43,735 nucleotides of DNA from a virus. How positions within the stretch are numbered: position 1 is the stretch's first letter; each line of letters opens with the position of its first letter. Below the pieces are notes generated by a model, which had not been told where the DNA came from, made no database searches, and was given only the letters and a program-made list of their open reading frames with translations. Positions 9,110 through 40,926 of this stretch are shown piece after piece. The position numbers and the translations under genes are program-made. The stretch is taken from positions 1 to 43,735 of IMG/VR virus record IMGVR_UViG_3300017991_004323; one strand, 5' to 3'.

Positions 9110-9136
9110 GAGGTGGAGATCCAATAACGATCACTA

Positions 9137-11071: not shown

Positions 11072-11622
11072 AGCAAGAGGAACCGCTTGACCGCTTCCGC
11101 GGCCTTCGCCCCTAACTCCTGAGGCGTTCCGTCGTTGACGAGGACTTCGTGCCAGGGGTAGTCCTCGGGGATCATGTGATCGAGGGCCTGGGTCGAAGGT
11201 GCGTCGGGGCGGACGATCTTCAACAAGAGGCCGCCACGCTCGCGAATGGCCTCGGCTTCGTTCACTCCACGGACGTCGGTGAAGATACAGAGCCCCTTGT
11301 CGGGCAGATCGTCGAGGGCCTGATCGCGCCATACGTGCTCGTGAATCTCGCGCCCCTTGCCGCCAACTTCGATCATGAGCTCGAGCGGCGTCTTACCGAT
11401 CCCGGGGAGCGGCTTGGATCGCTCTTCTCTGTGCTGCTCGTAGTAGTCCGGCGGCTGCATGCCGTAGCACTTGAACATGAGGTAGGTGATGTACTTCAGG
11501 TCGTAGGCGAACTTGCGCACCTCGACGCTGATCCAGGGGAGGTAGGCGCGGATCCCGCGCGCGGCGGTGTCCTTGCCTACCCCCGTCTGGTGCCCCATTC
11601 CGATCAGGACGAGCTTGGACAC
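11068..11622 (-). CDS. P-loop nucleotide kinase (dNMP-kinase-like), 184 aa
   Basis: Walker A-like GHQTGVGKDTAA at residues 10-21, as in phage deoxynucleoside-monophosphate kinases and other adenylate-kinase-like proteins. A later strand with an acidic end (LCIFTDVRGVNEAEAIRERGG) fits the base-contact/Walker B region. The expected reaction is phosphoryl transfer from ATP to a (d)NMP. With the MazG-like protein at 4020-4754 it suggests nucleotide-pool control. GTG start at 11622, two bases after the upstream gene. The exact substrate cannot be told. Confidence 0.75.
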   Translation of the reverse strand: MSKLVLIGMGHQTGVGKDTAARGIRAYLPWISVEVRKFAYDLKYITYLMFKCYGMQPPDYYEQHREERSKPLPGIGKTPLELMIEVGGKGREIHEHVWRDQALDDLPDKGLCIFTDVRGVNEAEAIRERGGLLLKIVRPDAPSTQALDHMIPEDYPWHEVLVNDGTPQELGAKAAEAVKRFLLL

Positions 11623-11623
11623 G

Positions 11624-12061
11624 CTACCGCCGGGGCGTCTTGGGGAGGACGTCCTTCTCGCAGCCAGCGACCCGCTTCTTGGCGGGGTTCGCGACCTCGC
11701 ACATGTAGTGGTAGCTGTCGGGGTCGTAGTTGGAGTGCTTCTTGAGCGCCGTCGAGAAGACCCCGTCGTAGTTCTCCTCGCCGTCCTGGAAGTTGTCGTA
11801 GACCGCGATCACGTTGGCGAGCGTCTTGCCGCCCTGACCAGGAATCCAGATCTGGTCGCCGACCTTGTAGAGGGGCTTGGGCTTCACCGGGCGGATCGGC
11901 TTGGGGGGCTTCGGAGGGCTGACCGGCTTCGGCAGATCGGCGACGGTGGGCGTCTCGGCCGCAGGAGCAGGGGCGTCCGCCGGAGCAGGAGGGGAAGCGT
12001 CGATCACCTCGCCCTCGATCTCCTCGGGGTCAATGGGGGTCGGATCGTTTTCGTTCGTCAT
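11624..12061 (-). CDS. Pro-rich linker plus SH3-like domain protein, 145 aa
   Basis: ATG at 12061 (MTNENDPTPIDPEEIEGEV). Residues 20-75 are a Pro/Ala-rich and then Pro-Lys-rich linker (PKPPKPIRPVKPKP). Residues 78-145 begin LYKVGDQIWIPGQGGKTLANV, a pattern of small SH3-like barrels. The architecture suggests a flexible tether for a binding domain. Function unknown. Confidence 0.75.
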   Translation of the reverse strand: MTNENDPTPIDPEEIEGEVIDASPPAPADAPAPAAETPTVADLPKPVSPPKPPKPIRPVKPKPLYKVGDQIWIPGQGGKTLANVIAVYDNFQDGEENYDGVFSTALKKHSNYDPDSYHYMCEVANPAKKRVAGCEKDVLPKTPRR

Positions 12062-14922: not shown

Positions 14923-16152
14923 TCACAACCCTAGATTTGCCAGGATCATGTTCAGCGCCGACTCGTTTTCGGCGGTCCCGACGAACACGTCCGGCTCGTC
15001 CGGGTTGAATGTCGTTCCCAAGTGGACCGAGTACGGCTCGGCGCCCTGGACCCACTCCTCGGAATCAGCCTGGTTCAACGCCATGCACCGGACGATCACA
15101 GCTACCTCCTCGTCCGGCCAGAGCGGGTTCCCCGCTTCGTCGAGCTCGAAGTTGATCCCGCTCGGATCCCACTCGATCCTCAGGTTCGGAGGCCTCCCGA
15201 CGGGAAGCACAGCCGTCGCCCAAGGATCAAGGTTGCTGCTTTCGTCTTCGAACCCGAACTCTCGCAGGAGGTGGGGGAACGGAACCAAGGGCTGGTAGTC
15301 GAACCCATGAAGCGGGAGCACGCTGTGGTCGCGGCCGGGATCGGCCGTTCTCATGCTCGAGTCGACGTAGTCGACCGCTCGACGCTGATCGCGCTCGATA
15401 GGGATCCAGGCCCGATAGAACAGCGGCTGCATGATCTCCTGATAGGCGTAATCCGGATCCTCGTCGACCGCGAACCCCTCCTCGGTTGCGAGGTAGTCAA
15501 CGAACCAGTTCACCGGAAACAGAGCGCGTGGGTAGTGCCCCAGGTCCATGTGCCAGGCCATGACGCCCAGTAGGCGAGGTCCAGGCTCGACGAGCGCTCG
15601 GGCCGCGGCGAGCAGGTATTCGACCTGATCTTCACCCCGGATCATGCGATTGACCGCGGGTGGCATGCGAAACTCGCCCTCACCGTATAGGTAAACCTTT
15701 CCACCGCGGCCGCCGAAGTTCCACGGCCTCCTTTCCGCAGGAAGATCGAGCCAGGAAGCGTCGAGGGTAGCGAAGCAGGCGACCTGGTCCTCCCCTTCGA
15801 CGTCCGACCAATCCACCGGTCGATCGCTCAGCAAATCAGGCCAGCCGATCAGCAGCAGCGCGTCACCAGGCAACAACCTGCCGAGAATGAAGTTCGGGGC
15901 CTTGGGGTAGGGAACCAGGAACCAGTCCGAACCGAGCTCCTGAGCGGCGAGCACGAAAGGTTCGAAGGCCTCGTCGACCTGGCCCGCGCGCAGGAGCGCG
16001 GTGGCGTAGGCGAGCACGTCTTCGCTCGAGCCGGTCTCCTCGGCGCGGCGCTCAAGGTCTCGGAGGCGTCCTGCTGGGTTTCGCTTCACCGAATCGTGTC
16101 CGCTGCGCTCACGCCAGCGCCGGCCCTCGTCGCTGTTGCGTCGGTATCTCAT
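14923..16152 (-). CDS. large protein with KRNP junction and RLRDLER module, 409 aa
   Basis: ATG at 16152 (ATGA overlap with the gene before); the open frame upstream is a shadow. Residues 1-27 are a basic N-terminal arm ending KRNP, followed at once by a helical GRLRDLERRAEETGSSED module (residues 28-60). The remaining 350 residues form one or more domains rich in Trp and Pro (WFLVPYPKAPNF; MAWHMDLGHYPRALFPVNWF) with no motif I know. The arm-NP-module order is the same as at the internal junctions of the mosaic proteins at 19376-28364. Confidence 0.75.
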   Translation of the reverse strand: MRYRRNSDEGRRWRERSGHDSVKRNPAGRLRDLERRAEETGSSEDVLAYATALLRAGQVDEAFEPFVLAAQELGSDWFLVPYPKAPNFILGRLLPGDALLLIGWPDLLSDRPVDWSDVEGEDQVACFATLDASWLDLPAERRPWNFGGRGGKVYLYGEGEFRMPPAVNRMIRGEDQVEYLLAAARALVEPGPRLLGVMAWHMDLGHYPRALFPVNWFVDYLATEEGFAVDEDPDYAYQEIMQPLFYRAWIPIERDQRRAVDYVDSSMRTADPGRDHSVLPLHGFDYQPLVPFPHLLREFGFEDESSNLDPWATAVLPVGRPPNLRIEWDPSGINFELDEAGNPLWPDEEVAVIVRCMALNQADSEEWVQGAEPYSVHLGTTFNPDEPDVFVGTAENESALNMILANLGL

Positions 16153-16643
16153 TCGAACTCCACGTCCCCCTGGAGTCGCCAGGTAGCACCGCAGTCCGAA
16201 CACGAAAGGAGGTTTGTCCAACCTCCCGTAATGTCGTGGTCCTCGTAACCGATCGTCGCGCGGTCCTCGTAGATCGTAGGAGAGGAAACGATTCCGTAGT
16301 TGTTCTCGAGCGTAAAGTATGTATCTCCGCTGGAGTGGTAGTAATCGGGGTCGTCTTCGTCTCGCCAAAACTGAAACGCGGCGTGACCCCTCGGGCAGAC
16401 GAGGTTGTTCTCCCAGTCAGGGAACCAGTTTCCGTTGCGGCGCTCCCACCGAATGAGGTGCTCTTCGTCGCTGACGTAATTGGGCAGCGCGTCCATGACC
16501 GCCCGGTAAAGCGCGACCTGGTCTTCGAGCGAGAGCGCTTCGATCATGCCCTGCCGAAGCCGCAGCGCGATCAACGACGTCCGGGCGTCCAGGTCACCCT
16601 GGCCGGCGCGGCGCTCGAGCTCGCGGGCGCGCGGGTCAGTCAC
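16149..16643 (-). CDS. RARELER-module plus zinc-ribbon protein, 164 aa
   Basis: Residues 2-33 (TDPRARELERRAGQGDLDAR) are another copy of the recurrent helical module. The C-terminal two thirds contain V-C-P-R-G-H and later L-S-C-S-D-C-G, a split zinc site, around an acidic, tyrosine-rich middle. Not recognised beyond that. Four-base overlaps on both sides place it in the 14923-17364 operon. Confidence 0.75.
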   Translation of the reverse strand: MTDPRARELERRAGQGDLDARTSLIALRLRQGMIEALSLEDQVALYRAVMDALPNYVSDEEHLIRWERRNGNWFPDWENNLVCPRGHAAFQFWRDEDDPDYYHSSGDTYFTLENNYGIVSSPTIYEDRATIGYEDHDITGGWTNLLSCSDCGATWRLQGDVEFE

Positions 16644-17368: not shown

Positions 17369-17701
17369 CTAGGCGATCTTCTTGATCTTGCGGTAGATGT
17401 ACGTGCCCGTCAGCCCGAGCGCCATGCCCGCCACGCCGATCGCAAGGATCCGCGAAAGAGGGCCAGGCTCGCCGTAGGGCGCGACCGTCACCGTGCCCGC
17501 GATCGTGTTCACGTCGAAGGTCGGCTTGAGCGCAGCCAGGAAGAACTCACCGATTCCGGGAGTGCGACTGCTCTGGCCGGTCAGATCGGCTCCGGTGTAG
17601 GTGACCGAAGGACTCAACGTTGAGCGGAAGGTGACGGAACGGATCGGGTTCGCCGCGGCACCGCTGATCGCGCTCGAGACAACGCGGGTAAGGTCAGACA
17701 T
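17369..17701 (-). CDS. hypothetical protein with C-terminal membrane helix, 110 aa
   Basis: An N-terminal amphipathic helix (LTRVVSSAISGAAANPIRS) ends in an Asn-Pro like the junctions in the mosaic proteins. A Ser/Thr-rich beta stretch follows, then a membrane helix at about residues 83-103 (ILAIGVAGMALGLTGTYIY) and a basic RKIKKIA end. Likely anchored in the membrane with the N-terminal part outside or in the virion; inferred from composition only. Confidence 0.7.
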   Translation of the reverse strand: MSDLTRVVSSAISGAAANPIRSVTFRSTLSPSVTYTGADLTGQSSRTPGIGEFFLAALKPTFDVNTIAGTVTVAPYGEPGPLSRILAIGVAGMALGLTGTYIYRKIKKIA

Positions 17702-19375: not shown

Positions 19376-21454
19376 CTATCGGGACTTGCGCTTTTTCAGC
19401 GCGCCTCCTGCCAGCGCCGCGGCTCCCGCCGCCCCGGCCGCGGTTGCGACCGCCGTCGTGACGCAGACTGGGCAGGGGTTGCTGCGAACCCGCCGCTGAG
19501 CAAACGCGTGATCGCTCAAGGTCAGTTGATCGCTGGCAATCTCGCCGTCGGCCCACAGCGTGCTCAGCCACTCCCAGGCGAGATCGGCTTCGATCACTCG
19601 CTCGTAGTTGGGTTCGAGTCCGTTCTCGCCCCCGATCGCCGTTACGGTCGCCAGGTGATTGGCCGTTTGGATCGGCTCGCCCTCGTAGAGGCTCACGACG
19701 TAGTAGAAATCTTCGTAGTTCTCCATGTGCGACAGCGACCAGTCGTATTCAACCCCGAAGACCCAGCCCCTTTCTTCCGCCTCGCGCTCCGCCCAGGCCA
19801 GGTCGACCGCGTTGCGCACACGGTGCTCGATCTGCTCAATCGCGTCCGCGCCAGCAGGGTGCGACCAGCCTGCCCACTCATACATGTATCGCTCGGCTTC
19901 GTTGAGGTTGAAGCGAGCGAGGACCGTCTCCTCAAGCTTGCCGTGAAGTTCAAGCAGGCGAATGTATTCCTCCTGCTCCTCGGGCGTGCGCTGCTTGCGC
20001 TCGAGCTCTCGGATCCGCTGGTCGCCGCGGGGTGGATTGAAGCCGATCCTCCTCCTGAGAATGGCCTGGCGAATCGACTCGATTCCGATCTTGTCCCAAG
20101 GCGACCCGCACCTGCCCTGCATGACGAACGCATGAAGTTCGTGAGGGGCGTAGTACCTCAGCAGCATGTCGGCTCGGAGCAATCGAGGCTCCTGGGCCTG
20201 TGAAGTCGGGGCGTCCCGCTCAAGGACGATCTGGCCGTCGCGGGTCAGAGCGCAATCAACAAGATCCTCGCTCATGACCTCAACGACTTCGAACTTTATT
20301 CCGTGAGCGTCCCCCAGGGCCTCAGCACATGCCAGCATTTTCGCGTTCTGGATCCGAGCTTCGATTCGAGCCATTTCACCGCGGCGGCGTTCGTCAAAAG
20401 CGGACCACCCGTAGCCAGATCGCTCGTAGAAGTAACGCTCGGCAGGAGTGAGCGTCTGCGGGATCACGTGCTCCTCCAAGCGCCCGAGCTCGCCATGAAG
20501 TTCAAGCAGGCGAATGTACTCTTCCTGCTCTTCCGGCGAGCGCTCGATCCGCTCGAGCTCGCGAATCCGCTCGTCCCCGCGAGGCGGGTTGAGCATGACG
20601 ACGTCGTGCCCCTCGGCCGCCAACTCCCGCAGGAGTCGCTTCAGACTCGTGAGCGCGTTCTTCCAGGATCGCGGGTCACTGGCCGTCTTGGGAAAACCGA
20701 TCGTCTTGCCCTTGATCTTGTAGATCAAGTGCTTCTTGCTGCGAACTAGCTTGGCGTCGTTCTGCTCGAGCAGCCACTTGACCTGGGAGAGCGCGTCACT
20801 GGAGCGCCCCTTCTTCTTGCCCTTCTTCCTCTTCTTCTTGGGATTCCTGCGCACGATCACGCTCCATTGCCGTTCGTTCAATCGCCCCAGGAACTGGTCC
20901 AGCGCGAGCTCGAGATCGTCGGTCGGGGCCGTGCTCCCGTAGCTCATGAGGCCCGGCGTCGCGTCCCGGACCGCCCAGCGCAGCGCAGACGGATCGCCCT
21001 GCTCGAGCCAGGCACGCAGCAACTCCTTGCGCCAGGGCTCGGCGCGCCGCTCGGCGAGCGTCCCCCAGAACGGGGTCAGCGAAATCGTATCAACGCGAAG
21101 GAAGTCCCCCGCCGCGGCCCGCGCCTGAGGCGTCGAGCGGGACAGGCGCCTTATGCGGGCCTCTACGTGATCCAGGAGCTCGTCGTCCAGAACGCGTTCG
21201 CCGGACGTAAAGGGCGAGGCGATCGGGTTGCTCATGACGCCCTCAAACAGAGGTCCTGGGCCCTCGTCTTCACGCGGGTCGTAGATCGGCGGAGGTTCAA
21301 TTCCGACGCGATCTCGCTTCTGCTTGGCGTCGAGCCAACTCTGGTAGCTCTTCTCGAGCTCTTCGCGCCGGGCTCGCCGATCTTTGATCGCGCGAATGCG
21401 GGCGCGCTCTCGCTCGCTCGAGATCCACCAGGCCCAGTCTTCCCATTCGCTCAT
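19376..21454 (-). CDS. mosaic protein with five NP junctions and HicA-like domain, 692 aa
   Basis: ATG at 21454 (GAGGG upstream). Asn-Pro junctions lie at residues 76, 204, 289, 473 and 659 and divide it into unlike segments. Residues 218-282 (LLEQNDAKLVRSKKHLIYK, then SDPRSWKNAL) resemble the HicA mRNA-interferase fold, though without a clear catalytic His in the usual place. Residues 291-472 and 475-658 are paralogous and each begins RGD-x-R-I-R-E-L-E-R, followed by EEYIRLLELHG. The last 33 residues are C-P-V-C plus a glycine/alanine membrane-like helix and KKRKSR. Five of about 16 asparagines precede proline. It may be a polyprotein or a string of fused genes; no function known. Confidence 0.8.
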   Translation of the reverse strand: MSEWEDWAWWISSERERARIRAIKDRRARREELEKSYQSWLDAKQKRDRVGIEPPPIYDPREDEGPGPLFEGVMSNPIASPFTSGERVLDDELLDHVEARIRRLSRSTPQARAAAGDFLRVDTISLTPFWGTLAERRAEPWRKELLRAWLEQGDPSALRWAVRDATPGLMSYGSTAPTDDLELALDQFLGRLNERQWSVIVRRNPKKKRKKGKKKGRSSDALSQVKWLLEQNDAKLVRSKKHLIYKIKGKTIGFPKTASDPRSWKNALTSLKRLLRELAAEGHDVVMLNPPRGDERIRELERIERSPEEQEEYIRLLELHGELGRLEEHVIPQTLTPAERYFYERSGYGWSAFDERRRGEMARIEARIQNAKMLACAEALGDAHGIKFEVVEVMSEDLVDCALTRDGQIVLERDAPTSQAQEPRLLRADMLLRYYAPHELHAFVMQGRCGSPWDKIGIESIRQAILRRRIGFNPPRGDQRIRELERKQRTPEEQEEYIRLLELHGKLEETVLARFNLNEAERYMYEWAGWSHPAGADAIEQIEHRVRNAVDLAWAEREAEERGWVFGVEYDWSLSHMENYEDFYYVVSLYEGEPIQTANHLATVTAIGGENGLEPNYERVIEADLAWEWLSTLWADGEIASDQLTLSDHAFAQRRVRSNPCPVCVTTAVATAAGAAGAAALAGGALKKRKSR

Positions 21455-21461
21455 GCTGCCC

Positions 21462-24293
21462 TCAGAACAAGTAGGCCTGGCGGGGATCGTCGAGCAGCCG
21501 GCCGCAGCGAACGATAATGTTCGCCCCGAGTTTGCTGAGGTAGATCTCACCCCCCTCGTAGAGAGTGCGCAACGCCTCGGCCGCCTCAGCGCCCAGCCTA
21601 CCCAGCACGAAGTGCTCGTGACCGAAAGCGTGAACCATGCGGCACCAGGTCCGCAGCAACGCTCGCAGTTCGTTCAGGTCCGAAAAGATCACGTCGTAGA
21701 GCACGAGCGACTTACCGAGCCGGGCGACCAGGCCCCCTCCGCGCTCGCTCGCGCCGCGCCCCCCGAAGCGACCGGCGACGATCGCGCCCGAGAACGGGTC
21801 CATGGGCAGGTAGCCGATCTCGACAACCGACTCTTGCCCCCAGCCCGACCGCATGCTGATCTCGAGCCCGCTCTCTGCGTCGCGCCAGCTGTACTCCTTC
21901 GGATTCTCGACCGGCCGGAGCACATACTTCCGCCCTTCCTTGCCGAGCTCGGCACGCAAGGCGTCGAAGGAGCGATCGAAGACACGATCAGAGAACAGGA
22001 CTGGAGGTGCCCCGGCGCTCAAGGACGCGTCGATCTGCTCCGGGGTCAGATCCGTCGATCGGTCGTTCGCCCGTCCCAAGGCGTCGACAAGGACCTCGCG
22101 CGACAAGGCGACGTTGCCCTCCAAGAGCTCGCGACGGACACCGGGAGCCATGCGGCGGAACGCCGTGACGAGCTCGGCGCGCAGGGCGTTGCTTCGGTCC
22201 TGCTTGGTCTCGCGCCGCTTCTTGGCACGCTTCTTGGTCTTGGCGCGCTTCTCCTCCAGGCGCTCGACGGCTCCGCCGCCCTCGTAGCGCTGCCGAGCGG
22301 CAGCGAGGAGTTCCTCGCCCCGCTTCTTCATGGACCCGCCGCTCGCCTTGTGCCAGTTGCCGGGCTTGCCCTTGAGCAACTCGTAGCTGCGCTTCTTGAA
22401 CTTGATCCGCCGGTTGCCGTCGGGGTGGCGCAACCCGCCCCACTGATCGCGCGTCCAGCCTCGGCCCAGGTAGTAGGCAGAGATCAGATCGGCGCCCAGG
22501 TCCGTCGTGACCTTCTTCTTGCGGCCGGCAACCTTGAGCACTTCAGCGTCGCCGGGCTCGAGTCCGAGCGCTAGTCGAGCAACCTCGTCCTTGTTCGCAG
22601 CCTGAGTGAGCACGCGACCCTTGTCGGCCTCACCGATCCGCAACCGCTCGCGCAGCAAGTTCGCCTCAGCCTCAGGCGTCGGCGATTCCTGGAACTCCCG
22701 TTCGGCGCGGGCAAAGCGATCGTCGGGGTTCATTTGCCGGGGCGGCCCGGAACGCTGGTAAGGGCGAGGTGGCCAGTTGTCCGCAAACTCTTCGATCGAA
22801 GCCATGGCGTAATCGACGCTGGCCTTCGCTTCTTCGATATGGCCGTTTTCGATTTGGTGGACCGCGGAAACGACCGCGGACAGAGGCCCGCGCAGTTCTT
22901 CTTGGTGACCGCTTTGGACGTAGAGGTCGTCCGTTCGACTCAAGAGCCTGCGGAGATCGGCGCCTGCGTACTGCGCGTACCGATCCGGATCGGTGTGCAG
23001 TCCCTCCCAAACGTCCAGGAGTCGATCAGAGAGGTTCTTAGCGATCCAGGCCTGGTAATCACTTCGGGCAGGATTTCCGCGCGCAGGCCAAACCGGGCGC
23101 CCGTCGCGCGGCGGCGGCTCGTGCAGGTAGGCCCACATGATCAATCCGAGGTGCTGGCGCGTCGGGATCCAAGCGCCTCGCTTCGCGCTCCACTCCCAAA
23201 ACGGACGGCCGCTCTCTTCCATTTGGGTGACGTGCCGGGCAATGAACTCGCCGCGGCGATCCCACCAGGACGTCTTCGCTGTCGCCTTGCGCTTCTTGAG
23301 CGCTGACTTCTTTCCTTTGACCGCCTTGTAGGCCTGAAGGAATCCTTCGCCTGTGACCTTGCTGCTTCCCTTGCGAGCCACCTCGCTGACACCACGCTCC
23401 TCAGCCAACGGCTCCCACTTCCTGACCTCGGCCAGGGAGAGGTAGGGACGAGCGGCGCCCCACCTCTTCGTACGGCTTGGGTTTGCCTTGACGAGCTTCC
23501 GAGCCGCTCCAGCCGCGTCCCTGGCAGCGCCAACGGCTCCCTCGCCTGCTTTGGTGATCGCGCCCTCGGCGAGGTCGGTCACAGGCTGGGTAATCCACTT
23601 GTCGATCCGGTTGGTCACGAGCTCGGCAGCAGCACCCGAAGCCGTCCAGCCGATCAATTTGCCCACGAGCTCGGTCCCCGAAAGGCCGAACGGATTGTCT
23701 CGATAACGGCGCTGGAGCGTGCGCTCGTGCTCCGCCTCGTCGAAGTATGCGTCGATCGCGTCCTGGATCTCGCCCAGCGAGACCTCCGAGGGCTCCATGT
23801 CGGCACGCAGGTAGCCCACGCGCTGCAACTCACGGGCGAGCTCGGTCAGCAGGCGCGCATATCGCTCTCCGCTCGAGGCGTGCAGCTGCCGGTAGAGCAA
23901 GCGCATGCGCTCGTCCCGGCTCGGGTTCCTCTTCGCCTTGGAGGGCTTGTCCTTGGGGGTCATTTCGTTTGCCTCGCGAACGAGCTCGGCGATCTCAGGG
24001 GGGTAGGGGACGCGTTGACCCTTTTTGGCCTTGACCTTCTTCTTGACCTGCTTGAGCAAGATCGAGCGACCCTGCTTGGTCTTGTTGAGCTCTCTGATTG
24101 CGTGAATCGGCAGGCAGAGCGGCGGGCGATCGCCTGAGAGACGGGTGCCCTTCGCGCCGCACTTGTGCGACCAGTCCAGGTCCTTGTTATATTGTCCCTT
24201 CTTCAGCGGCGTGCTGTCGCGATTCTTGCGCAGCAAGATCGAGCGCCAGTCTTGCTGGGTCCACTGCCACGACTGGTATCCAGGCGCTCCCAC
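21462..24293 (-). CDS. mosaic protein with six NP junctions, 943 aa
   Basis: GTG start at 24293. Junctions KRNP (122-124), RDNP (199-201), KANP (270-272), RGNP (406-408), MNP (521-523) and ENP (796-798) split it. Segment 1 has a Lys-rich end. Segment 2 starts SRDERMRLLYRQL (the recurring module). Segment 3 (201-270) is a Gly/Ala-rich amphipathic region (LIGWTASGAAAELV). Segment 6 starts DDRFARAEREFQ (the module again) and has a long basic coiled part (residues 640-700). The last segment is a beta-rich domain ending DPRQAYLF. No enzyme motif is seen. The parts look like separate phage proteins joined end to end. Confidence 0.8.
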   Translation of the reverse strand: MGAPGYQSWQWTQQDWRSILLRKNRDSTPLKKGQYNKDLDWSHKCGAKGTRLSGDRPPLCLPIHAIRELNKTKQGRSILLKQVKKKVKAKKGQRVPYPPEIAELVREANEMTPKDKPSKAKRNPSRDERMRLLYRQLHASSGERYARLLTELARELQRVGYLRADMEPSEVSLGEIQDAIDAYFDEAEHERTLQRRYRDNPFGLSGTELVGKLIGWTASGAAAELVTNRIDKWITQPVTDLAEGAITKAGEGAVGAARDAAGAARKLVKANPSRTKRWGAARPYLSLAEVRKWEPLAEERGVSEVARKGSSKVTGEGFLQAYKAVKGKKSALKKRKATAKTSWWDRRGEFIARHVTQMEESGRPFWEWSAKRGAWIPTRQHLGLIMWAYLHEPPPRDGRPVWPARGNPARSDYQAWIAKNLSDRLLDVWEGLHTDPDRYAQYAGADLRRLLSRTDDLYVQSGHQEELRGPLSAVVSAVHQIENGHIEEAKASVDYAMASIEEFADNWPPRPYQRSGPPRQMNPDDRFARAEREFQESPTPEAEANLLRERLRIGEADKGRVLTQAANKDEVARLALGLEPGDAEVLKVAGRKKKVTTDLGADLISAYYLGRGWTRDQWGGLRHPDGNRRIKFKKRSYELLKGKPGNWHKASGGSMKKRGEELLAAARQRYEGGGAVERLEEKRAKTKKRAKKRRETKQDRSNALRAELVTAFRRMAPGVRRELLEGNVALSREVLVDALGRANDRSTDLTPEQIDASLSAGAPPVLFSDRVFDRSFDALRAELGKEGRKYVLRPVENPKEYSWRDAESGLEISMRSGWGQESVVEIGYLPMDPFSGAIVAGRFGGRGASERGGGLVARLGKSLVLYDVIFSDLNELRALLRTWCRMVHAFGHEHFVLGRLGAEAAEALRTLYEGGEIYLSKLGANIIVRCGRLLDDPRQAYLF

Positions 24294-24715
24294 TAGGACG
24301 GCTCCTTCGCAAGCACGACCGCGCGCTCTCCGAATCCGTCGTAGACCTTGAGGAGGACAACCTCGGCGGCCCCCTCGAACGTCTCCTCGGTGTCACGATA
24401 GAAGAAGTGCGGACCGTGGGTCATGCAGTTGTAGCGAAGCTCGCGCCAGGGGCCCGGCGGGACCTCCTTGACCTCGCCGTCGATCTCTCCGTCCAGGTAA
24501 GCGTGAACGTTGCGCTGACCCTTCTCGCGAGCCCGCTCCCAGCCCGAGCAAACGACATGAGGCTTGCAGCCCCTCAAGCGCAGCCCGCGGGCGTACCCTT
24601 CGACCTTTCCGTCACGCGTAACCGCAAAGCAGAGGTTGTGCAGGTTGTAGTGGACGCGCGCCTTGCCCGAAAAGTTGGTCAGCGGGCGGTCGATCGGATC
24701 GCAGCAGCGGATCAT
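24293..24715 (-). CDS. hypothetical protein, 140 aa
   Basis: ATG at 24715 overlaps the previous stop by four bases. It reads as an alpha/beta domain with a beta-hairpin (LCFAVTRDGKVEGYARGLRLRG in shorter pieces). Several Cys and His residues (C4, C5, H22, H26, C29) could bind metal. It lies between two mosaic genes. Not recognised. Confidence 0.7.
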   Translation of the reverse strand: MIRCCDPIDRPLTNFSGKARVHYNLHNLCFAVTRDGKVEGYARGLRLRGCKPHVVCSGWERAREKGQRNVHAYLDGEIDGEVKEVPPGPWRELRYNCMTHGPHFFYRDTEETFEGAAEVVLLKVYDGFGERAVVLAKEPS

Positions 24716-26955
24716 GATCCCTCCACGGGGTCCGGAAGGCCGTCGAACGGATCCTCCTCCAGGCCGAAGAATCGCTGCATGAACGAACGGTGCTCGAGGG
24801 GAACGTGGTTCACGTTATAGGGGTCATACTCTTCGACTCGAACCTGAAAGCTCCCAAGGCGGTATACCCAGCCAGGAACGAAGTCAGGGTCGACGCCGTA
24901 TCCTCCAGAGTTCAGAGGCCACAGCCGGATTCCCCCCGCCCCGCCCCCTGGGAAGCGAAAGTCGACGTGCGGAATCAAAAAGACCGGAGGGCCCTCGTCT
25001 TCACCAGTGAAAGCGAACTCGAAATAGACGCGGTCGACGACGACAACAGACCGGTCATTGTCAAGCCACTCTTCGGTCGTGTATCCATGACCGCTCGGAA
25101 AATTCCCCGCACGAAAAGCTCGGCGCGCCTGAACAGGCGACCAACGAAGCGTGATCTTCTCTCCGGGACTGGGCAGAAATCCGAGCTCCTGAAGGATCGC
25201 GAGGTCCTCCGCGAGCTCCCTGCTCGTCGGGATATCAAGTTCCCCCAAAGGACTGGCTCCCTCTGGAACGAAATGGTAGAGCGGGGGGCGTGGCTCGACC
25301 CCGCGACGGATACGCTCGATCCGAGCGGCGATCGGATCGCGACCGCGCTCGAGCCGCCGCATGCGCTCGTCGGGGTTGTTGCGGACGCGCCCCGGCCAGT
25401 CAATTTCAATTTCTTCGCCAATACGTGGCGCCTTCCAGGCGCCGCCGGCCAGCCTAGCGTCTATGTAAAACCTCGAGCCGCTTACCTCAAAATAGATCGT
25501 AGGCCGAAGCCAGTCTCCAGGGACAACCTCGCAAGGGTCTGGAAATTCATACCTCAGGTCAGCGCACTTCGTGACCACTTCTCCGTTCAAACCGCGGGAC
25601 CAACGAGGCCTAAACGACGGATAGCCCAACGAGGGATCCCAGCTAATCCTGATCTCTGAATCGAACTGAGGAAGCAGGCCGAGCTCCTGCTGAATCGAAA
25701 TGATCTCTTGGATCTCTTCCCGAGAGGGGATTCCGCCTCGGCCGAAAGCGTCTATGCCTGGGTAGCAGCGGCGGAGATCAACGTAACTCTCTTCCGCCGG
25801 GACGTTGTCGAACTTGAACTCGAGCGGAGGCACCGGCTCGACCCCGCGGCGAATTCGCTCGATTCGGGCAGCGATCGGATCGTCGCTGCGCCCGAGTCGG
25901 CGCATGCGCTCGTCGGGGTTGCTGCGGACGCGTCGCTTGAGGTAAGACCGGTAGCTCTTGGTGGTCGGGCGGACGTGCCCGGTCGGGCAAGACCCGTCTT
26001 CGAGACAGGCTCCCAGGCCGACGTCGGTGATCTTGGTCGGCACGGGATCAAAGCGTGCCAGCGCGTCGTTCACCAGGCGGAGGTGGTGGCCCGGCAGCGC
26101 CAGGTAGACCTCCTGATACTTGGGCGCGACCAGGCAGAACCAGTCCCCAATTCGATCGACGAGCTCAGCACGAGCCGCGCCGCGGAGGTGCTTGGGCGGG
26201 AAGTCGTAACCCGTCTGGGGGTATTCGCGCGACCATGCGTAGGGAACGATTCCGAGCGGCTCGCTGACCACGAACAGGTCGAGCTTCTTGCCCTTGAGCC
26301 CCTTGAGGTAGCCGTGCTTGTGGCTCGGCGCCTCAGGGAAGGGTTTGGTCCCAGCACAGGGGACGAGGACAGCCTTCTTGTGCTTCGGCTTGAAGCGGTG
26401 CGCCTTCTTACGGTTCTTGACGATCAGCGGGTGCTTGATCGCGCGCAGGCCCTGACGCGGCGAGCGGACGCGGAAGTAAGGCGGGTTCTTCCGGAACGAC
26501 TGACGCGACTTGTAGACCACGATCGGGATCATGTATCCGAACGCGCGCTCGAGGTCCACGTAGAGGTCGCCCTGTCGACTCCGGCGCCCCAGGTGTCGCA
26601 AACGGAGCTCCCCGGATTCACCTCCGAAGTCGAACAGGACGTCGATTACCTTGTAGCGCTCGCCGCGGCGATCGACCACGAACACGTCAGCCGTCCCGGC
26701 TCCGGCCGCGGCCAGAAGATCCTCCCAGGTGTTGGGGTTGGTGATCCCCATGACCGGTCCGACGGTCAGCATGCTCTGCAGCGCCTGGGTGATCGCCGGC
26801 TTCTCGTAGGTCCCCTCAGGCTGATAGATCAGCGGCGCCTCGCCCGAAGCGAGGTCGGCAAAGACGAGGCCGCGAGGCGGAGTCGTCATGGTCTTGGGTG
26901 CCGGCATGGGCAGGAACGCCTCGGCGGACGCCGGCAGGAGCGGCTCTTCGCTCAC
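24712..26955 (-). CDS. mosaic protein with DUF5591 (archaeosine-synthase-like) domain, 747 aa
   Basis: GTG at 26955, overlapping the zincin gene. Residues about 195-300 carry V-P-C-A-G-T-K-P-F-P-E-A-P-S-H, then VVSEPLGIVPYAWSREYP and Y-D-F-P. This matches the DUF5591 domain found with archaeosine synthase and tRNA-guanine transglycosylase-related proteins. Such enzymes act on 7-deazaguanine bases. NP junctions at 157 (RKNP), 346 (RSNP) and 527 (RNNP) bound four segments. The third and fourth are paralogous and both begin DERMRRL, followed by DPIAARIERIRRGVEP. Whether the DUF5591 part acts on tRNA, DNA or a free base is unknown. Confidence 0.8.
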   Translation of the reverse strand: MSEEPLLPASAEAFLPMPAPKTMTTPPRGLVFADLASGEAPLIYQPEGTYEKPAITQALQSMLTVGPVMGITNPNTWEDLLAAAGAGTADVFVVDRRGERYKVIDVLFDFGGESGELRLRHLGRRSRQGDLYVDLERAFGYMIPIVVYKSRQSFRKNPPYFRVRSPRQGLRAIKHPLIVKNRKKAHRFKPKHKKAVLVPCAGTKPFPEAPSHKHGYLKGLKGKKLDLFVVSEPLGIVPYAWSREYPQTGYDFPPKHLRGAARAELVDRIGDWFCLVAPKYQEVYLALPGHHLRLVNDALARFDPVPTKITDVGLGACLEDGSCPTGHVRPTTKSYRSYLKRRVRSNPDERMRRLGRSDDPIAARIERIRRGVEPVPPLEFKFDNVPAEESYVDLRRCYPGIDAFGRGGIPSREEIQEIISIQQELGLLPQFDSEIRISWDPSLGYPSFRPRWSRGLNGEVVTKCADLRYEFPDPCEVVPGDWLRPTIYFEVSGSRFYIDARLAGGAWKAPRIGEEIEIDWPGRVRNNPDERMRRLERGRDPIAARIERIRRGVEPRPPLYHFVPEGASPLGELDIPTSRELAEDLAILQELGFLPSPGEKITLRWSPVQARRAFRAGNFPSGHGYTTEEWLDNDRSVVVVDRVYFEFAFTGEDEGPPVFLIPHVDFRFPGGGAGGIRLWPLNSGGYGVDPDFVPGWVYRLGSFQVRVEEYDPYNVNHVPLEHRSFMQRFFGLEEDPFDGLPDPVEGS

Positions 26956-28364
26956 CCTTCACCTCGCAGGTAGCGCGTCAGGAGACCGTCGTCTCCGTAG
27001 AGGAGGTCCATACAGAAAGAGTCAAAGGCCTCCGAGTCCAATTCAAGGCGAACCAGAAAGTCGGCTTCATACGCGTCGCCGGCCGGGTGAACCTCCAAGA
27101 AGCCAACGACGCCATGCGCGCGATCGGCCAAGAGGTCCCAGTAGCCCTCGCGGCTCAGGTGCCCTTCGAGGAACTCGAGCCATATGTCCCACGGCCCAAG
27201 CGGCTCCTCGAGCGGAAGATCCCACTCAGAACGGAAGGCCGCGGCCGCGGCCGCAATGTCCCCCTGCTTGACCTCCACGAAAGGACTCAAAACGTCCAAC
27301 AAGAGATTACGAAGCGAAGCAAGAGGGCTCAGCATTCCGGAGATCTCTTCGTAGTAAAGAGACTCCCCTTCGCTCCGAGACTCCCTTGAATAGACGGCAA
27401 GATAGGGCGCGACGCCGTAGCCGCTCACGCTTGGCCCGAGGGACGGCCAGTCTACGAAGAGACGAGCGTCCTCTCGCTGCGCTTCGTCCCGCGCGTTCTC
27501 GACCAACCACTCGGACAGCGCGCCGACGACCCCCAATCTCGCCGCCTGCAGCCGGCGCTCCAGGCGCTCAGCAGGAATCTCGCGGCCAGCTTGCGACTCG
27601 CGCGAAATGTCGTAGCAGAACAAAGCGACGAACGCCCAGAGCGGCGGGCCAGACAAGTTGTCGACATAGGTCTGCTCGGCCAGCGTGCCGTCGAAGAGCA
27701 GTCGGAACGCGTCGTCGTCCAAGTCCTCGAGCAAAACGAATTCCGCTCGCTGACGGGGCGTCGCGTGGCACCCGCGGTCGACCAGGACCTTTGGGGCCGC
27801 CAACAGCCCGAGCAGGTAGGCGTCCGCCGGGTGGATCACGCCCCGACGTGTTGCCTCACGCGTGTACCGCTCCCAGGCCTCTTGGGTGTTGTCTTCTTGA
27901 GCGCGCCTCAGAACTTCGCGCAGGCGCTCGCGACGGGGGTTCAGCGCCACCTGGAGTCCCTTTGCACGCTTGGTGCTGGGCCAGCGCAGGTCGTAACCGA
28001 TCTTGACGCCCGTGACTGCCGACCCCGCTCGATCCGCCCCCGGCTCGTCCGCCTCAGGGTCGGCGACGTGACCGATCTCGTGCGCGAACAGCGCCTTGCG
28101 GTTCTTCCTGGGCAGCCAGCGCGTCTGCTCGGCGAGTTCGAAGATCGGTGGCTCTTCTCCGACGCGAACCTGGGCGTAACGGCGCGCGTTCTCCTCATGC
28201 GTCTGCGTGAGCTCTCGCGGCCAACGGAGCACGAAGGGCCCCTTGAAGCCCGCCTTGCGGTAGAGGGCCTCATACTCCCTGCGGATCTGATCGCGCGATA
28301 CAGGCCGCTTGAGCTTTGGGTGCTTATGTCTCCGGCAGAACTCTCGGCCGCTGGACCTGCTCAT
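26952..28364 (-). CDS. zincin metallopeptidase domain plus NP-linked module, 470 aa
   Basis: HEIGH at residues 95-99 (H95, E96, H99), then ADPEADEPGADRAG, where an acidic residue could be the third zinc ligand. This is the active-site pattern of a gluzincin/IrrE-like peptidase. The peptidase part ends about residue 140 in QVALNP, followed at once by RRERLREVLRRAQED (the recurrent module) and 300 residues of helical protein of unknown function. It is a candidate for cutting the NP-junction proteins encoded just downstream, but that is only inference from position. Confidence 0.78.
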   Translation of the reverse strand: MSRSSGREFCRRHKHPKLKRPVSRDQIRREYEALYRKAGFKGPFVLRWPRELTQTHEENARRYAQVRVGEEPPIFELAEQTRWLPRKNRKALFAHEIGHVADPEADEPGADRAGSAVTGVKIGYDLRWPSTKRAKGLQVALNPRRERLREVLRRAQEDNTQEAWERYTREATRRGVIHPADAYLLGLLAAPKVLVDRGCHATPRQRAEFVLLEDLDDDAFRLLFDGTLAEQTYVDNLSGPPLWAFVALFCYDISRESQAGREIPAERLERRLQAARLGVVGALSEWLVENARDEAQREDARLFVDWPSLGPSVSGYGVAPYLAVYSRESRSEGESLYYEEISGMLSPLASLRNLLLDVLSPFVEVKQGDIAAAAAAFRSEWDLPLEEPLGPWDIWLEFLEGHLSREGYWDLLADRAHGVVGFLEVHPAGDAYEADFLVRLELDSEAFDSFCMDLLYGDDGLLTRYLRGEG

Positions 28365-29718: not shown

Positions 29719-32700
29719 CTAGATCCGCTCCTCTTCGTCCCACTCGAGCGAATCAAGCAGGCTCTCTTTCTCGCGCAACGTGTCGAGAACCAGCTTGTCG
29801 ACAACGTGCTTCGCGACGAAGCGCACAATCAAGATCGAGTCGTGCCCCTCGGCGCCAATGCGGATCAGGCGACTCTCGGCCTGCTGGTTCTTGGCGGGGT
29901 TCCAGCTGAGATCGATAAAGCCGGCGACCTTGGCGCGGGTGAGCGTGATCCCCTCACCGCCGGCACCGATCGAGACCGCGAGCCCGCGCTCGATCTCGCC
30001 GGACTGGAAGGCCTCAACGATCTTCTGCCGCTTCTTGGCGGCGACGCCGCCGTGGAACACGTCCCAACCCGGCCGCCCGTCGAGGTAGCTCTCGCCTGCG
30101 AGCTTCTTGAGGATCGAGACGTGCTGGGAGAAGAGGACGACCGGCTCGTTCTCCTCCTCGCACTCTTCGATCCAGGCCTTGACCGCGGCGAACTTCGCCT
30201 GACTCAGCATGGACCGAATTCGGCTGAGCTCGTCGATTGTCGGCATTTGCGTGCGGCTGAGCAGGGCCTCCTGCACGGCCTCGAGGATCTCTTCGTCCTT
30301 GTTCCAGGGCCGCTCCTGGAAGTAGTACTCGACCCGCTCGTCGTAGATCAGACGGCGGCGATCGCGCTCGTCCGGGCTGAGGTGGGGCTCGAAGGGGCTG
30401 AGGATCTTATGGGGGCCACTGTCTGCGGTGACGTCCTGCCACGACCGCTTGACCGCGAGCATGTGGTGGACAGCCTCTTCGACCTCCCGGCGCGTCTTGT
30501 CATTGATCTCGACCTCAATGATCTTCTCGACACGCGGAGGCAGCTGCGAGAGGACGTCCTTGCGGCGACGGTTGATCTGCACTCGGCGCAGACGAGCGTG
30601 AAGCTCGTCACGAAGTTCGGCCGTCGGAGGCCGGCGACTCCCCTTCGGGTTCTCATACCAGTGCCGGAAGATTCGGAAGTAGTTGTCCCAGCTGCCGAAT
30701 GCCGCCCGCTCGAGCCCGAGCGACTTCAGCACCTCCCAGAACTCGCTCGGCTTGCCCTCGCACGGCGTGCCCGAGAGCCCGTAGACGAAGCCGTTCATGG
30801 CCCAGACGCGATCGCGCATGGCGCGCCAGCGCTGCGTGCGGAAACTGCTCGGGTTCTTGAACGCGTGGCATTCGTCAGCCAGCAGAACCATGGGCCCGGT
30901 GATCTCGGGGTAAGGGTTGGCCTGGTGGCAGGTGCGATCGATCGGCTCGCCGTGCTTGTCGTGCCCGCAGATCTTGACGGGGTCCGGATCGTCCACCCAC
31001 TCTTCGTACTTTCCGCCGTAGTGATACGGGATCACGCGACGGCGCCCGTCGACGACGAGCTCGAACGTGCGCGGGTGCTGAAAGTCTATGTGCGTGTGCT
31101 CGCAGCGCGGCAGGATCAGATTCCCAATCCGGCGCTCTTTGCGCAGATACCTCAGCAGACCGCGGAGGCGCTTGCAGCCCTTGCAGGGCTCGCCCGGCAA
31201 GACGCCGAACGAAGCAAGCAGGACGTCGCCCGGGGAAAGCGCCTTGAACTTCAAGGCGTAGTTCTTCATGGACGTCGCCATTTTCGGGCGAAGGTCCGGG
31301 CGCCACTTCTTGATTTCCTTCTGCCAGTTGTAGCGGACCGAGCTCGGGCTGAAGACGAGGTTCGGCATGTCGCTGCGCAGGGCGCCGAAACTCGAGATCA
31401 CGGTGTTGTGGCAGAGGATCCCCTCGGCCACATAGTTGTGATCCCTCTCGATCTCGAGATCGTAGACCCAGTCGTCGTAGTCGACCTCTTCGACCGAGAC
31501 GACGGTGGCGTAGTGGACCTCCTGCTCGATCAACCGCCAGGCCCGGTCGCGCGTGACCCGAAGGTCGTCATAGTCAAGTCGACGGAGTGCCTCGTCGATC
31601 CTCTCGCGGCGATACTTCCCGGCGAGATACTCCTCGGCAGCCTGGCCACTCAGCATGTTGTCCATGGCTTCAACGACAACCGCAAGCGACTCGCGCGAAA
31701 ACTCCTGCTTGCCCTTGAGGTAAACCGTCGAGAGCTTGTATTTCGGATCCAAGTGCCACCATGAGGCAGGGAGTCCCGCGCGATCGAAGGCGGCCCTTAT
31801 CAGATCAGAGGCCGGGAGGCCTTCGGTGTTGCTGTTGACCTTCTTCGCGCAGGCCCTCTCCAACTGCTCAGTCTTGTAGCCAACGGAGAACCCAACCTCG
31901 TCTCGATATCGACGAAGACTCGCTCCGCTGATCGTTCCTACCCAGTAGTCACGGTAGGGGCAGTTGGGGCTATTCGTTGCGCGGGCTCGCTTGCTGCGAA
32001 CTCGCACCCAGATACCAAAGCGACGGAAGAGGTGGACGAGCTCCTTGACGAGCAGCTGACTCGCGCTCGAGAACTCAACAATGCTCCCCCTCTTGGGGCA
32101 GGATCCCTCCGCGTCCATGTAGGCGCGCAGGAAGGTTCGAACGACCTCTGCATTTCCCTGCATGACCGGGAGCGGAACGCGGCGATCACGGGAGCGTGTG
32201 CCCCAGGGGTAGTCGAAGCGCAGCATGAATTCACGTAGGCCTGGATCAGAAACCAGGTCAAAAGCCAAGTGAGTGGCACGCGGCTCGTTAATAGACGGCT
32301 CGAATCCAAGGCGGGCAAGAATGCCGGCCAGTCGTTCGCAAACCATTCGATCTTTCTGGGTAAAGACCGAGCGACCGGACTCCTCGCGCCCGTCGCCAAT
32401 CAACCACCCCATGAGCTCTGCGAGCTCAAGGTCTAGATCGCCGCTCTCATGCAAGAGTCGGGCGGGAACGCAAATCCGGTCGCCAGGCCTGATCTCGTTC
32501 GTCCACACCTCAGGCCCGCGTAGCTTATGGGCCTTAGTGATCGTCGTCTCGCTGCCGTCATTCAGACGGACGCGGACGAGCTTCTCCCTGACCCTCTGGC
32601 GGTAGAGGCGCTTGACCGGGCGGCGAACGATCCTGCCCGTCGCGTCGTCGATCGAGTTGACGAAGAGAGGCTCGGTCGGTTCAGACCAATAACCCTCTCC

Positions 32701-33105
32701 GTCGAATTCAATGTTAGGACTCGCGTATTCATTCCAGGTGAATTCTGCAGTCTGAAGCTCGCCGTTGATTTGAGCTAAGTCCTTATATGATCGACACTTG
32801 CCGCAGCCCATTTGATGCCCGACCAGTAATGCACGCGTATTGCTAATCCTGCGCGCGTCGGTCTCCTGGAACCCCATGAGCGAGAGGCCGAGGTCAGGCA
32901 ACTCCCTGAGCCGGCGATCAAAGCCGTTGTCGGTGATCCCGTCGACCATGACGCACAAGGCGCAGCACAGCCGTAGCGGCGCCTGGACGAACTCGCCCTC
33001 GCCGGGATTAAGCGCCACGCCGCAGCGATAGCAGGTGCCCAGGTGCCGGTTGGGAAAGGGCTTGATTCGCTGGTGCAGTCGCTTCTTCTTGGCCATTTGG
33101 GCCAA
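29719..33105 (-). CDS. SNF2-family helicase containing an intein, 1128 aa precursor
   Basis: The N-terminal 60 residues carry a C-Y-R-C ... C-A-L-C zinc ribbon. Walker A (VGHQMGCGK, residues 95-103) is split after the Lys by an intein (104-567). After splicing it reads GHQMGCGKT. The rest shows SNF2 motif II DECH (744-747), a Cys/His insert between motifs I and II, F-S-Q-H (motif IV), G-A-G-G-E-G-I-T-L-T (V) and Q-A-E-S-R-L-I-R-I-G (VI). The spliced product would be about 664 aa. ATP-driven DNA or nucleosome-like translocation is the family activity; in phages these proteins are usually linked to replication, recombination or transcription. The ATG at 33105 or the one three codons later could start it. 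Confidence 0.9.
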   Translation of the reverse strand: MAQMAKKKRLHQRIKPFPNRHLGTCYRCGVALNPGEGEFVQAPLRLCCALCVMVDGITDNGFDRRLRELPDLGLSLMGFQETDARRISNTRALLVGHQMGCGKCRSYKDLAQINGELQTAEFTWNEYASPNIEFDGEGYWSEPTEPLFVNSIDDATGRIVRRPVKRLYRQRVREKLVRVRLNDGSETTITKAHKLRGPEVWTNEIRPGDRICVPARLLHESGDLDLELAELMGWLIGDGREESGRSVFTQKDRMVCERLAGILARLGFEPSINEPRATHLAFDLVSDPGLREFMLRFDYPWGTRSRDRRVPLPVMQGNAEVVRTFLRAYMDAEGSCPKRGSIVEFSSASQLLVKELVHLFRRFGIWVRVRSKRARATNSPNCPYRDYWVGTISGASLRRYRDEVGFSVGYKTEQLERACAKKVNSNTEGLPASDLIRAAFDRAGLPASWWHLDPKYKLSTVYLKGKQEFSRESLAVVVEAMDNMLSGQAAEEYLAGKYRRERIDEALRRLDYDDLRVTRDRAWRLIEQEVHYATVVSVEEVDYDDWVYDLEIERDHNYVAEGILCHNTVISSFGALRSDMPNLVFSPSSVRYNWQKEIKKWRPDLRPKMATSMKNYALKFKALSPGDVLLASFGVLPGEPCKGCKRLRGLLRYLRKERRIGNLILPRCEHTHIDFQHPRTFELVVDGRRRVIPYHYGGKYEEWVDDPDPVKICGHDKHGEPIDRTCHQANPYPEITGPMVLLADECHAFKNPSSFRTQRWRAMRDRVWAMNGFVYGLSGTPCEGKPSEFWEVLKSLGLERAAFGSWDNYFRIFRHWYENPKGSRRPPTAELRDELHARLRRVQINRRRKDVLSQLPPRVEKIIEVEINDKTRREVEEAVHHMLAVKRSWQDVTADSGPHKILSPFEPHLSPDERDRRRLIYDERVEYYFQERPWNKDEEILEAVQEALLSRTQMPTIDELSRIRSMLSQAKFAAVKAWIEECEEENEPVVLFSQHVSILKKLAGESYLDGRPGWDVFHGGVAAKKRQKIVEAFQSGEIERGLAVSIGAGGEGITLTRAKVAGFIDLSWNPAKNQQAESRLIRIGAEGHDSILIVRFVAKHVVDKLVLDTLREKESLLDSLEWDEEERI
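31405..32796 (-). mobile_element. intein with LAGLIDADG homing endonuclease (464 aa) in helicase Walker A
   Basis: Starts at Cys104 and ends His566-Asn567, with Thr568 as the first downstream residue, the full set for class 1 splicing. Block B has T-x-x-H (T190 to H193). Two dodecapeptide motifs (LAELMGWLIGDG at 228-239 and FLRAYMDAEG at 325-334) keep both acidic residues, so the endonuclease looks active. The C-terminal block is VYDLEIERDHNY...GILCHN. The GK^T position in P-loop ATPases is a well-known intein insertion point. Confidence 0.92.
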
Positions 33106-36693: not shown

Positions 36694-37053
36694 CTAGATC
36701 AACTCCTCCAGGAGATTGGGGTCGATCTCGACCTGGACGTCCAGATCCGCCTCCTCCCAGCACCCGACGAGATCGTCCACGACGACGCCGGACTCGGGGT
36801 GGAGGCGCCAGCCCTCGCCGTCGCTCAGGACGAGGTCCGTCTCAGCGGGTTCGGACTCGGTGTAGTCGAAGTCGTGGTACTCCCCCTCGTGGTAGCGGTG
36901 GATCGCGTGCTCAGGCGAGTAGGCCTCGACCTCGACCCGAATCACCCCTTCGAGCTCGAACTCCGCACAGTCAAAGAGAACGAAGTTTCGGGTCAGGCCG
37001 GGAATGAAATCCTGCGCAGGAAGGGCAGGCACACCCTCAGTCGAAACGGTCAA
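36694..37053 (-). CDS. hypothetical protein, 119 aa
   Basis: TTG at 37053 in a TTGA overlap with the previous gene, after GGTGGATC. Acidic beta-rich protein (GVIRVEVEAYSPEHAIHRYHEG is the strand-helix core, shortened here: VIRVEVEAYSPEHAI). It resembles small phage proteins with an E-A-Y-S-x-x-x-A helix. Function unknown. Confidence 0.65.
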   Translation of the reverse strand: MTVSTEGVPALPAQDFIPGLTRNFVLFDCAEFELEGVIRVEVEAYSPEHAIHRYHEGEYHDFDYTESEPAETDLVLSDGEGWRLHPESGVVVDDLVGCWEEADLDVQVEIDPNLLEELI

Positions 37054-37967
37054 TGGAGATCCACCAGTTCGCAGAGAATGGGGCTCTGGGACAAGCGACG
37101 CCTCTGCTCCGCCGAAAGTCCGTTTAAGAAACATTGGCCATGCTCGACCTCGAGCCTGGCGTCCGAGTTGCCGCGTGAGAGGTATCCGACCTCACGGGCA
37201 TGACCGACGAACTCTTCGATCTCGTCCGACCAGTCGTAGAGAACGGCGCGTGGATCTCCTTCGTGGTCCTGAATCAACTGCTCGAGCCGGCTGTGCAGAT
37301 CCCACGAGCGAATGGCGAGCGAAGGCGACAGGAGCCCGTCCAAAAGCTCGTCCTCGTCTTCGCGCTCCTGCTCCTCGTCGCCCCGGCCTTCACCGCCGAG
37401 GTAATCAAGGACGACCTGAGGCACCTCGCCCTGCAAGAGCTCGGGCTCGTCGCAGGTCTCACGGCACCAGGCGCAGAAGCGAACGCGTCCGATCCACTCG
37501 CAGCCCTGATTGACGAGGATCTGGCGCTGGCGACACGTCGGCTCCGCGTGATCGTTGTAGAGGTGAAAAGGCGTGTGAGCGATCCGGCAGAACCCGTCGC
37601 TGTGCGAGGGGATCTGGAAGACGTCCACGTTGTCGCTACCCGCCCAATTCTTCCAGTAGCGAAGGCGGGTTTGCTTCACGCGCTTCACGGCCTTGAAGGG
37701 ATCGCAGTACTTGACGACCGCCTCGCCCGAAGGGTCGGTCGAGATCGATTCGACATATCGAGAGGCAGACGCTCCCCAGGGGTAGGTGCAGAACAGGTCG
37801 CCCGGCTGAGGGTCCGTGCGCGGATTACGCCGGCCACTCTGGATCTTCTGCATGGCCGAGAGCGCCGCGTTCTGCAGGGCGTGCAGTTGGTCGAGACCCA
37901 GGCCGAAGTCGCCGAGGCCCTCGGTCAGGATCACATTGATTGCACGGCGGACGTTGAGATCAGCCAC
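37050..37967 (-). CDS. hypothetical protein with N-terminal RRNP junction, 305 aa
   Basis: GTG at 37967. Residues 1-47 are helical (INVILTEGLGDFGLG; LQNAALSAMQKI) and end S-G-R-R-N-P-R, the junction motif of the mosaic proteins. A domain follows (PGDLFCTYPWGASASRYVES) with two C...C pairs and a helical acidic C-terminus. It may be another arm-processed protein. No enzyme motif. Confidence 0.75.
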   Translation of the reverse strand: MADLNVRRAINVILTEGLGDFGLGLDQLHALQNAALSAMQKIQSGRRNPRTDPQPGDLFCTYPWGASASRYVESISTDPSGEAVVKYCDPFKAVKRVKQTRLRYWKNWAGSDNVDVFQIPSHSDGFCRIAHTPFHLYNDHAEPTCRQRQILVNQGCEWIGRVRFCAWCRETCDEPELLQGEVPQVVLDYLGGEGRGDEEQEREDEDELLDGLLSPSLAIRSWDLHSRLEQLIQDHEGDPRAVLYDWSDEIEEFVGHAREVGYLSRGNSDARLEVEHGQCFLNGLSAEQRRRLSQSPILCELVDLH

Positions 37968-40917: not shown

Positions 40918-40926
40918 GCTGACCTC

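Follow-up and report, generated by a model that had tools for sequence, protein, structure and literature searches.

Asn-Pro dipeptides mark the joins between modules of long proteins in a group of large viruses

The window analysed here is a stretch of 43,735 nt that corresponds to positions 113683-157417 of the 245,276-bp IMG/VR contig IMGVR_UViG_3300017971_000001 (the parent contig, G001). A row of genes on its minus strand, the strand of all the window genes and junctions that follow, encodes long proteins divided by Asn-Pro (NP) dipeptides. The 470-aa gene (26952..28364) begins with a zincin-like segment (HEIGH, residues 1-141), which is followed by an NP at residue 142 (LQVALNPRRER; 27936..27941) and a second segment. 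In the adjoining 747-aa mosaic (24712..26955), an N-terminal segment leads through NP157 (QSFRKNPPYFR; 26482..26487) to a DUF5591 (archaeosine-synthase-like) domain (25921..26481; Pfam PF17884, 2.9e-10), through NP346 (RRVRSNPDERM; 25915..25920) to a helical module, and through NP527 (GRVRNNPDERM; 25372..25377) to another. A separate gene of 140 aa (24293..24715) encodes a Phage_L5_gp82-like domain, and the 943-aa protein beyond it (21462..24293) holds six NPs, at window positions 23922, 23691, 23478, 23070, 22725 and 21900. The last of the row is a 692-aa mosaic (19376..21454; NPs at 21224, 20840, 20585, 20033 and 19475) composed of a HicA-like segment between NP204 and NP289 (20618..20800; PHROG 2053, 1.5e-5; the label HicA-like is taken over from an earlier, sequence-only reading of the window), two paralogous helical modules and a hydrophobic C-terminal segment. 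Its junction at residue 473 occupies 20033..20038.

The sequence-only reading had proposed that these are mosaics of unrelated segments with NP at their joins, and that NP is a processing or sorting signal. Its NP counts of 5, 6, 4 and 1 for the 692-, 943-, 747- and 470-aa proteins and its 16 Asn for the 692-aa protein are correct, and so is its description of tandem paralogues (the 747-aa modules after NP346 and NP527, and the 692-aa modules after NP289 and NP473). NP does mark joins, but not every NP is one: NP73 of the 747-aa protein (26734..26739) lies inside the N-terminal segment and is SP in the homologue k89694. In a weak predicted model of the 747-aa protein (pLDDT 43.6), NP73 sits between two helices, and NP157 and NP346 lie in low-confidence linker stretches, the feature for which the model was used. 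The motif was also said to end N-terminal arms elsewhere in the window. This holds for the 409-aa protein (14923..16152), in which KRNP (16075-16080) directly precedes a helical module, and for the 305-aa protein (37050..37967), in which GRRNP at residue 48 (37821-37826) follows the arm; the NP at 17645-17650 is missing from a relative's h406. The module of the 409-aa protein also opens a separate gene (16149..16643), as MTDPRARELERR.

We compared three viruses, the window's and two divergent relatives reached through a 212-aa protein, the best conserved of a late-looking gene cluster (low-confidence predicted structure, pLDDT 31.5). The first relative, G002, is a partial viral contig of 94,429 bp (58% identity in the 212-aa protein). 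The second, C66, is a 190,544-bp contig of MAG G003, 'Deltaproteobacteria bacterium OFTM107' (89% identity), to which the window's virus is tied by synteny and by 88 proteins with blast matches; because its ends form a 71-bp terminal direct repeat, C66 is apparently circular and complete. NCBI places the MAG's name in Myxococcota, and the host assignment from the MAG is uncertain, as the virus contig may be misbinned. The group is a little-known one of large viruses, whose hosts are probably soil bacteria. Neither a terminase large subunit (TerL, phrog_2; control positive in 13/14 genomes), nor an S78 prohead protease (PF04586), nor a packaging-type Walker A ATPase was recognised in G001, G002 or C66, and the PF03420 (S77) profile was silent everywhere, control genomes included. 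This lineage of 190-245 kb elements may not be one of tailed phages.

NP is enriched well beyond the window. The counts, here and in the relatives, use our own gene predictions, of which some start sites will be wrong; for the whole parent contig a small dicodon program gave 353 genes (85.5% coding). On these genes the genome-wide excess expected of a signal of this kind is evident, with 195 NPs against 108 expected over 245 kb (O/E 1.80, z = 8.3). Both relatives share it (O/E 1.66 in G002 and 1.80 in C66), and in proteins longer than 400 aa the ratio is 2.15 in G001, 1.55 in G002 and 2.20 in C66. The bacterial contigs of the same MAG gave 1.17, and other Pro dipeptides in these genomes are less enriched (DP 1.2-1.4, GP 0.9-1.2). 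The four window proteins together hold 16 NPs against 3.83 expected (Poisson P = 2.8e-6); taken singly, the excess is significant for the 692- and 943-aa proteins (each P about 0.001) and not for the 747-aa (P = 0.07) or 470-aa (P = 0.32) protein. Nor is the motif limited to this cluster. Its highest density is reached outside the window, in four genes of the parent contig (222-228 kb) with 5 to 9 NPs each, where tandem short repeats are bounded by it (PPRRNPRVYGDYGPPALPPRRNP). Basic residues in G001 are enriched at positions -2 (z = 5.8) and -4 (z = 3.7) from NP, and the -2 preference recurs in C66 (z = 2.8) and is absent from the bacterial contigs of that MAG (z = -1.1). The basic residues noted earlier before NP are frequent (11/17 junctions) but not obligatory, being missing at 6/17.

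The same segments are grouped differently in the relatives, and the breaks coincide with NP or fall close to it. G001 has zincin and DUF5591 in adjacent genes and the gp82-like domain as a separate one. In C66, k81299 reads zincin, NP, GNAT, NP, DUF5591, NP, helical module, and the next gene, k83200, ends with helical modules, the gp82-like domain, an NP and a Cys-rich tail. Residues 1-143 of the 470-aa protein align with residues 1-138 of k81299 (55%), and the homology stops at an aligned NP (LQVALNP / LQVARNP). Aligned NPs flank DUF5591 on both sides in the 747-aa protein and k81299, and the N-terminal segment of the 747-aa protein corresponds to the C-terminal end of C66 k89694, after its HTH region. 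The gp82-like domain is fused into long proteins in both relatives, with an NP 11-16 residues after it, and DUF6884, which follows an NP in g29067, is a separate gene in C66. With aligned NPs accompanying this regrouping, an NP join of one virus thus corresponds to the border between two genes in another, which upholds the description of the long proteins as mosaics and the expectation that their segments would be found apart or regrouped elsewhere. Beyond this set, relatives of the 747-aa protein among viral contigs and sequenced phages came down to a weak match of the DUF5591 part in Sulfolobus STSV1/2. Searches of G002, C66, viral contigs and sequenced phages found no homologue of any segment of the 943-aa protein, so its six NPs are taken as joins by analogy only.

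Across the three viruses' proteins, 23 of 207 homology breaks lay within 8 aa of an NP (12.8 expected, P = 0.0025); DP, NG, ND and N were not significant as controls, and GP (P = 0.047) and PP (P = 0.09) were weak. Where a gene start mapped inside another genome's protein, NP occurred within 12 aa in 9/40 cases (3.4 expected, P = 0.004), and for gene ends in 6/20 (1.5 expected, P = 0.002), most mapped starts (31/40) and ends (14/20) having no NP nearby. Two natural C-termini fall 0-2 residues from NP. C66 k83200 terminates as AWWREVPPGCGQ-stop (GCGQ) where h3870 of G002 continues as SWWTGGPPACER-NP-MKK (ACER-NP). A separate gene at parent contig 171641-172078 (g171641) ends in IGIESIRQAILRRRLA-stop (ILRRRLA), two residues before the position of NP473, where the 692-aa protein reads IGIESIRQAILRRRIGF-NP-PRGDQ (ILRRRIGF-NP); the DNA is identical over more than 40 bases, and the shared tract IGIESIRQAILRRR lies at 20048..20089 in the 692-aa gene. 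Recognised domains mostly avoid the motif (1 internal NP against 5.6 expected, P about 0.02), contrary to what would be expected if the NPs belonged to single domains.

The sharpest contrast came from the helical hairpin module, a lineage-specific unit that opens separate genes as 'MSDxR..' and also occurs inside long proteins. We trained an HMM only on gene-starting copies, without NP and with the first two residues removed. At E<0.01, an NP stood just upstream of 11/12 internal copies and 0/24 gene-starting copies (Fisher 2e-8). With NP contained in 5.9% of all 11-mers of the proteins concerned, 11/12 has a binomial P of 3e-13; the distance from NP to module start was 0-4 residues. At E<0.1 the counts were 12/15 and 0/29, the three exceptions being a copy that overlaps the gene-starting one, an apparently spurious match and a copy with RKNSD. 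With a looser module model a few gene-starting copies do carry NP or N[AS], and the gene-starting copy MIRRNPDAS is scored as lacking NP since its strict register begins upstream of it. A profile of module alignment A1, run against 284 genomes of G003's phylum, recovered only the C66 copies and two weak TPR-like matches.

NP therefore marks module joins in these viruses, and because it lies at or near positions that are starts or ends of separate genes in relatives, it probably represents a site at which fused proteins are cut or linked. For cutting in particular our confidence is evenly balanced: the long chains would then be modular polyproteins cleaved at NP or next to it, and the zincin would be the candidate enzyme. 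In these chains small proteins that are otherwise independent (zincin, GNAT, DUF5591, HicA-like, L5-gp82-like, HTH and the lineage-specific helical hairpin) are fused and re-fused in changing orders, each join bearing Asn-Pro, in many cases with Arg or Lys at -4 to -1. Post-translational cutting, most likely by a virus protease, would release mature modules with a joint action; that these products are packaged or injected would be a further, unsupported step. The tightness of position, at 0-4 residues from module starts and 0-2 from two natural C-termini, favours cutting. The presence of NP at protein ends, its absence from gene-starting modules and its protein-level nature fit a processing site and a preferred linker alike. 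The sequence upstream of NP varies, loosely for a cleavage motif, which counts against cutting, and since proline at P1' blocks most proteases, cleavage would need a site before Asn or an unusual enzyme.

Among putative enzymes the zincin segment is the best candidate, as it carries an HEXXH motif, is 55% conserved between two viruses and belongs to the same gene cluster, which it heads in two of the viruses. Its profile had no match in the PDB, and G002, a partial contig, yielded no zincin. The known processing protease families MPTase-PolyVal (PF18818) and prohead protease S78 had no match in G001, G002 or C66. A second candidate is a transglutaminase-like protein, which both larger viruses encode in their late-looking cluster. 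The C66 copy (40398-42224) contains a Hint intein at the catalytic cysteine, and the G001 homologue (212676-213452) has none. Another possible protease is encoded at window 38205-39806 (minus strand); its N-terminus weakly resembles a sacsin-type ATP-binding region, and near the C-terminus it has the zincin motif HEFAH.

The main competitor, to which we give slightly more than a one-in-three chance, is that NP serves as a favoured linker: the chains stay intact, and their domains are held apart by a stiff Asn-Pro turn accompanied by basic residues. The location of NP between domains and the low-confidence linkers of the 747-aa model suit this reading, gene fusion and fission are possible without cleavage, and polyvalent proteins such as the N4 virion RNAP are packaged uncut (PMC5512222). 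Plain linkers, however, require no fixed dipeptide, and DP and GP are less enriched and weakly or not tied to homology breaks; nor would a linker need to keep so close to module starts and to some natural C-termini. A part in a targeting tag at each module start, for particle packaging or compartment import, appears unlikely. Some proteins do open with M..RRN[APS], and [RK].N[PAS] has 17 matches within the first 14 residues against 6.0 expected, but such a tag would be needed on both types of copy; since confident gene-starting modules lack NP and internal copies carry it, the sorting role suggested by the sequence-only reading is disfavoured.

Asn-Pro is a common helix N-cap, and several junctions of the 747-aa model precede a helix. 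A structural cap or an effect of composition is nevertheless improbable, even more so than a tag: the same helix opens separate genes without NP, NP is also found at the ends of DUF5591 and zincin and in short peptides, and O/E in the bacterial contigs is 1.17. Least probable of all is that the joins reflect translation starting internally, or recombination or insertion at a DNA-level site. A Shine-Dalgarno-like stretch is present at 4/24 junctions, and one junction has more than 40 bp in common with the 3' end of another gene. Yet only 5/24 junctions have a start codon within 16 codons, just one of these with such a stretch, and NP uses both Asn codons and all Pro codons, chosen much as in the rest of the genome, amid varying flanks. 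Two narrower ideas were rejected. That the basic residues are translated Shine-Dalgarno remnants is true of one junction, AGGAGGAGG upstream of NP473, but AGG codons show no general enrichment; and for 2A-type ribosome skipping, DxExNPGP had no match and NPGP occurred only twice in the three proteomes.

Read as modular polyproteins, the NP-marked chains are closest to the polyvalent proteins of phages and conjugative elements, for which processing by embedded zincins has been proposed (Iyer et al. 2017, PMC5512222). As in that system, unrelated domains (zincin, GNAT, HTH and others) are combined in long proteins, two or more per polypeptide in k81299 and in the window's 747-aa protein, with separate versions elsewhere and fast re-fusion (PMC5512222). 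Here, unlike there, a fixed NP stands at the joins, and DUF5591, HicA-like, L5-gp82-like and a private helical module are among the parts. By that account, phages carrying polyvalent proteins are of the terminase-portal type (PMC5512222), whereas these viruses have no recognisable terminase, and the HEIGH zincin has no PF18818 (MPTase-PolyVal) match in G001, G002 or C66. For these two reasons we do not file the proteins as members, although they appear to work in the manner of such a system.

Prohead-protease processing in T4, phiKZ and SPN3US likewise uses a short motif common to several large-phage proteins, but that motif is A-X-E, acts mainly on N-terminal propeptides of head proteins (PMC10052503) and goes with an S78 protease of the kind not found in these contigs. 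In the PolA polyprotein of Thermocrinis Octopus Spring virus, likewise a bacterial DNA virus, domains are fused or separate depending on the member; it differs in being one replication protein, and we found no repeated junction motif reported for it (PMC7689252). PPEP-1, a zincin-type HEXXH enzyme with proline at the scissile bond, prefers Asn at P2 (PMC12828418). Pro-Pro endopeptidases are secreted bacterial enzymes that require Pro-Pro, and only some junctions here read NPP, so PPEP-1 serves as a precedent for a zincin accepting Asn-Pro before the cut and not as a relative. Our search, confined to the open-access literature, found no report of the NP junction motif.

Multi-site polyproteins, a typical feature of RNA viruses, have seldom been reported from bacterial DNA viruses. 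With a fixed mark at the junctions, viral chains that lack annotation could be divided into their real modules; the mark would also indicate a new site-specific protease and open the 2017 proposal that zincins process polyvalent proteins to a direct test, besides drawing attention to a virus lineage without a recognisable terminase. More tentatively, large tailless or non-canonical bacterial viruses might have dozens of chains cut at NP by a dedicated protease and swap modules there, a generalisation that we consider possible but short of probable.

Several further features of these genomes were recorded. Near the conserved 212-aa protein (parent contig 213-220 kb; C66 35-41 kb; G002 40-44 kb) there are runs of proteins that have a hydrophobic helix at the C-terminal end, in most cases with basic residues after it, and that resemble those of membrane-containing virions. 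All three contigs carry a gene for a patatin-like phospholipase, and the parent contig's Fe/Mn superoxide dismutase has a homologue in C66 (parent contig 11205-12038 and 165665-166252, respectively). A CRISPR array of about 11 repeats (GTGGCAGGTAAATAGGCCCCTGCCAGGACTTGTTGC; spacing mostly 66-79 bp; window 1-185, parent contig 113194-113950) adjoins a Cas12-like gene (window 803-2389, minus strand; PADLOC Cas12u1, 1e-45), and because both relatives have a Cas12-like homologue with similar adjoining arrays, a compact type V system looks conserved in the lineage. A lone degenerate copy of the repeat, intergenic and far from the array (window 9133-9170, plus strand), is possibly a tracrRNA-like or relic element. 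Finally, a SNF2-type helicase (window 29719-33105, minus strand) carries an intein-like insert in its Walker A motif, from which the C66 homologue k76566 is free.
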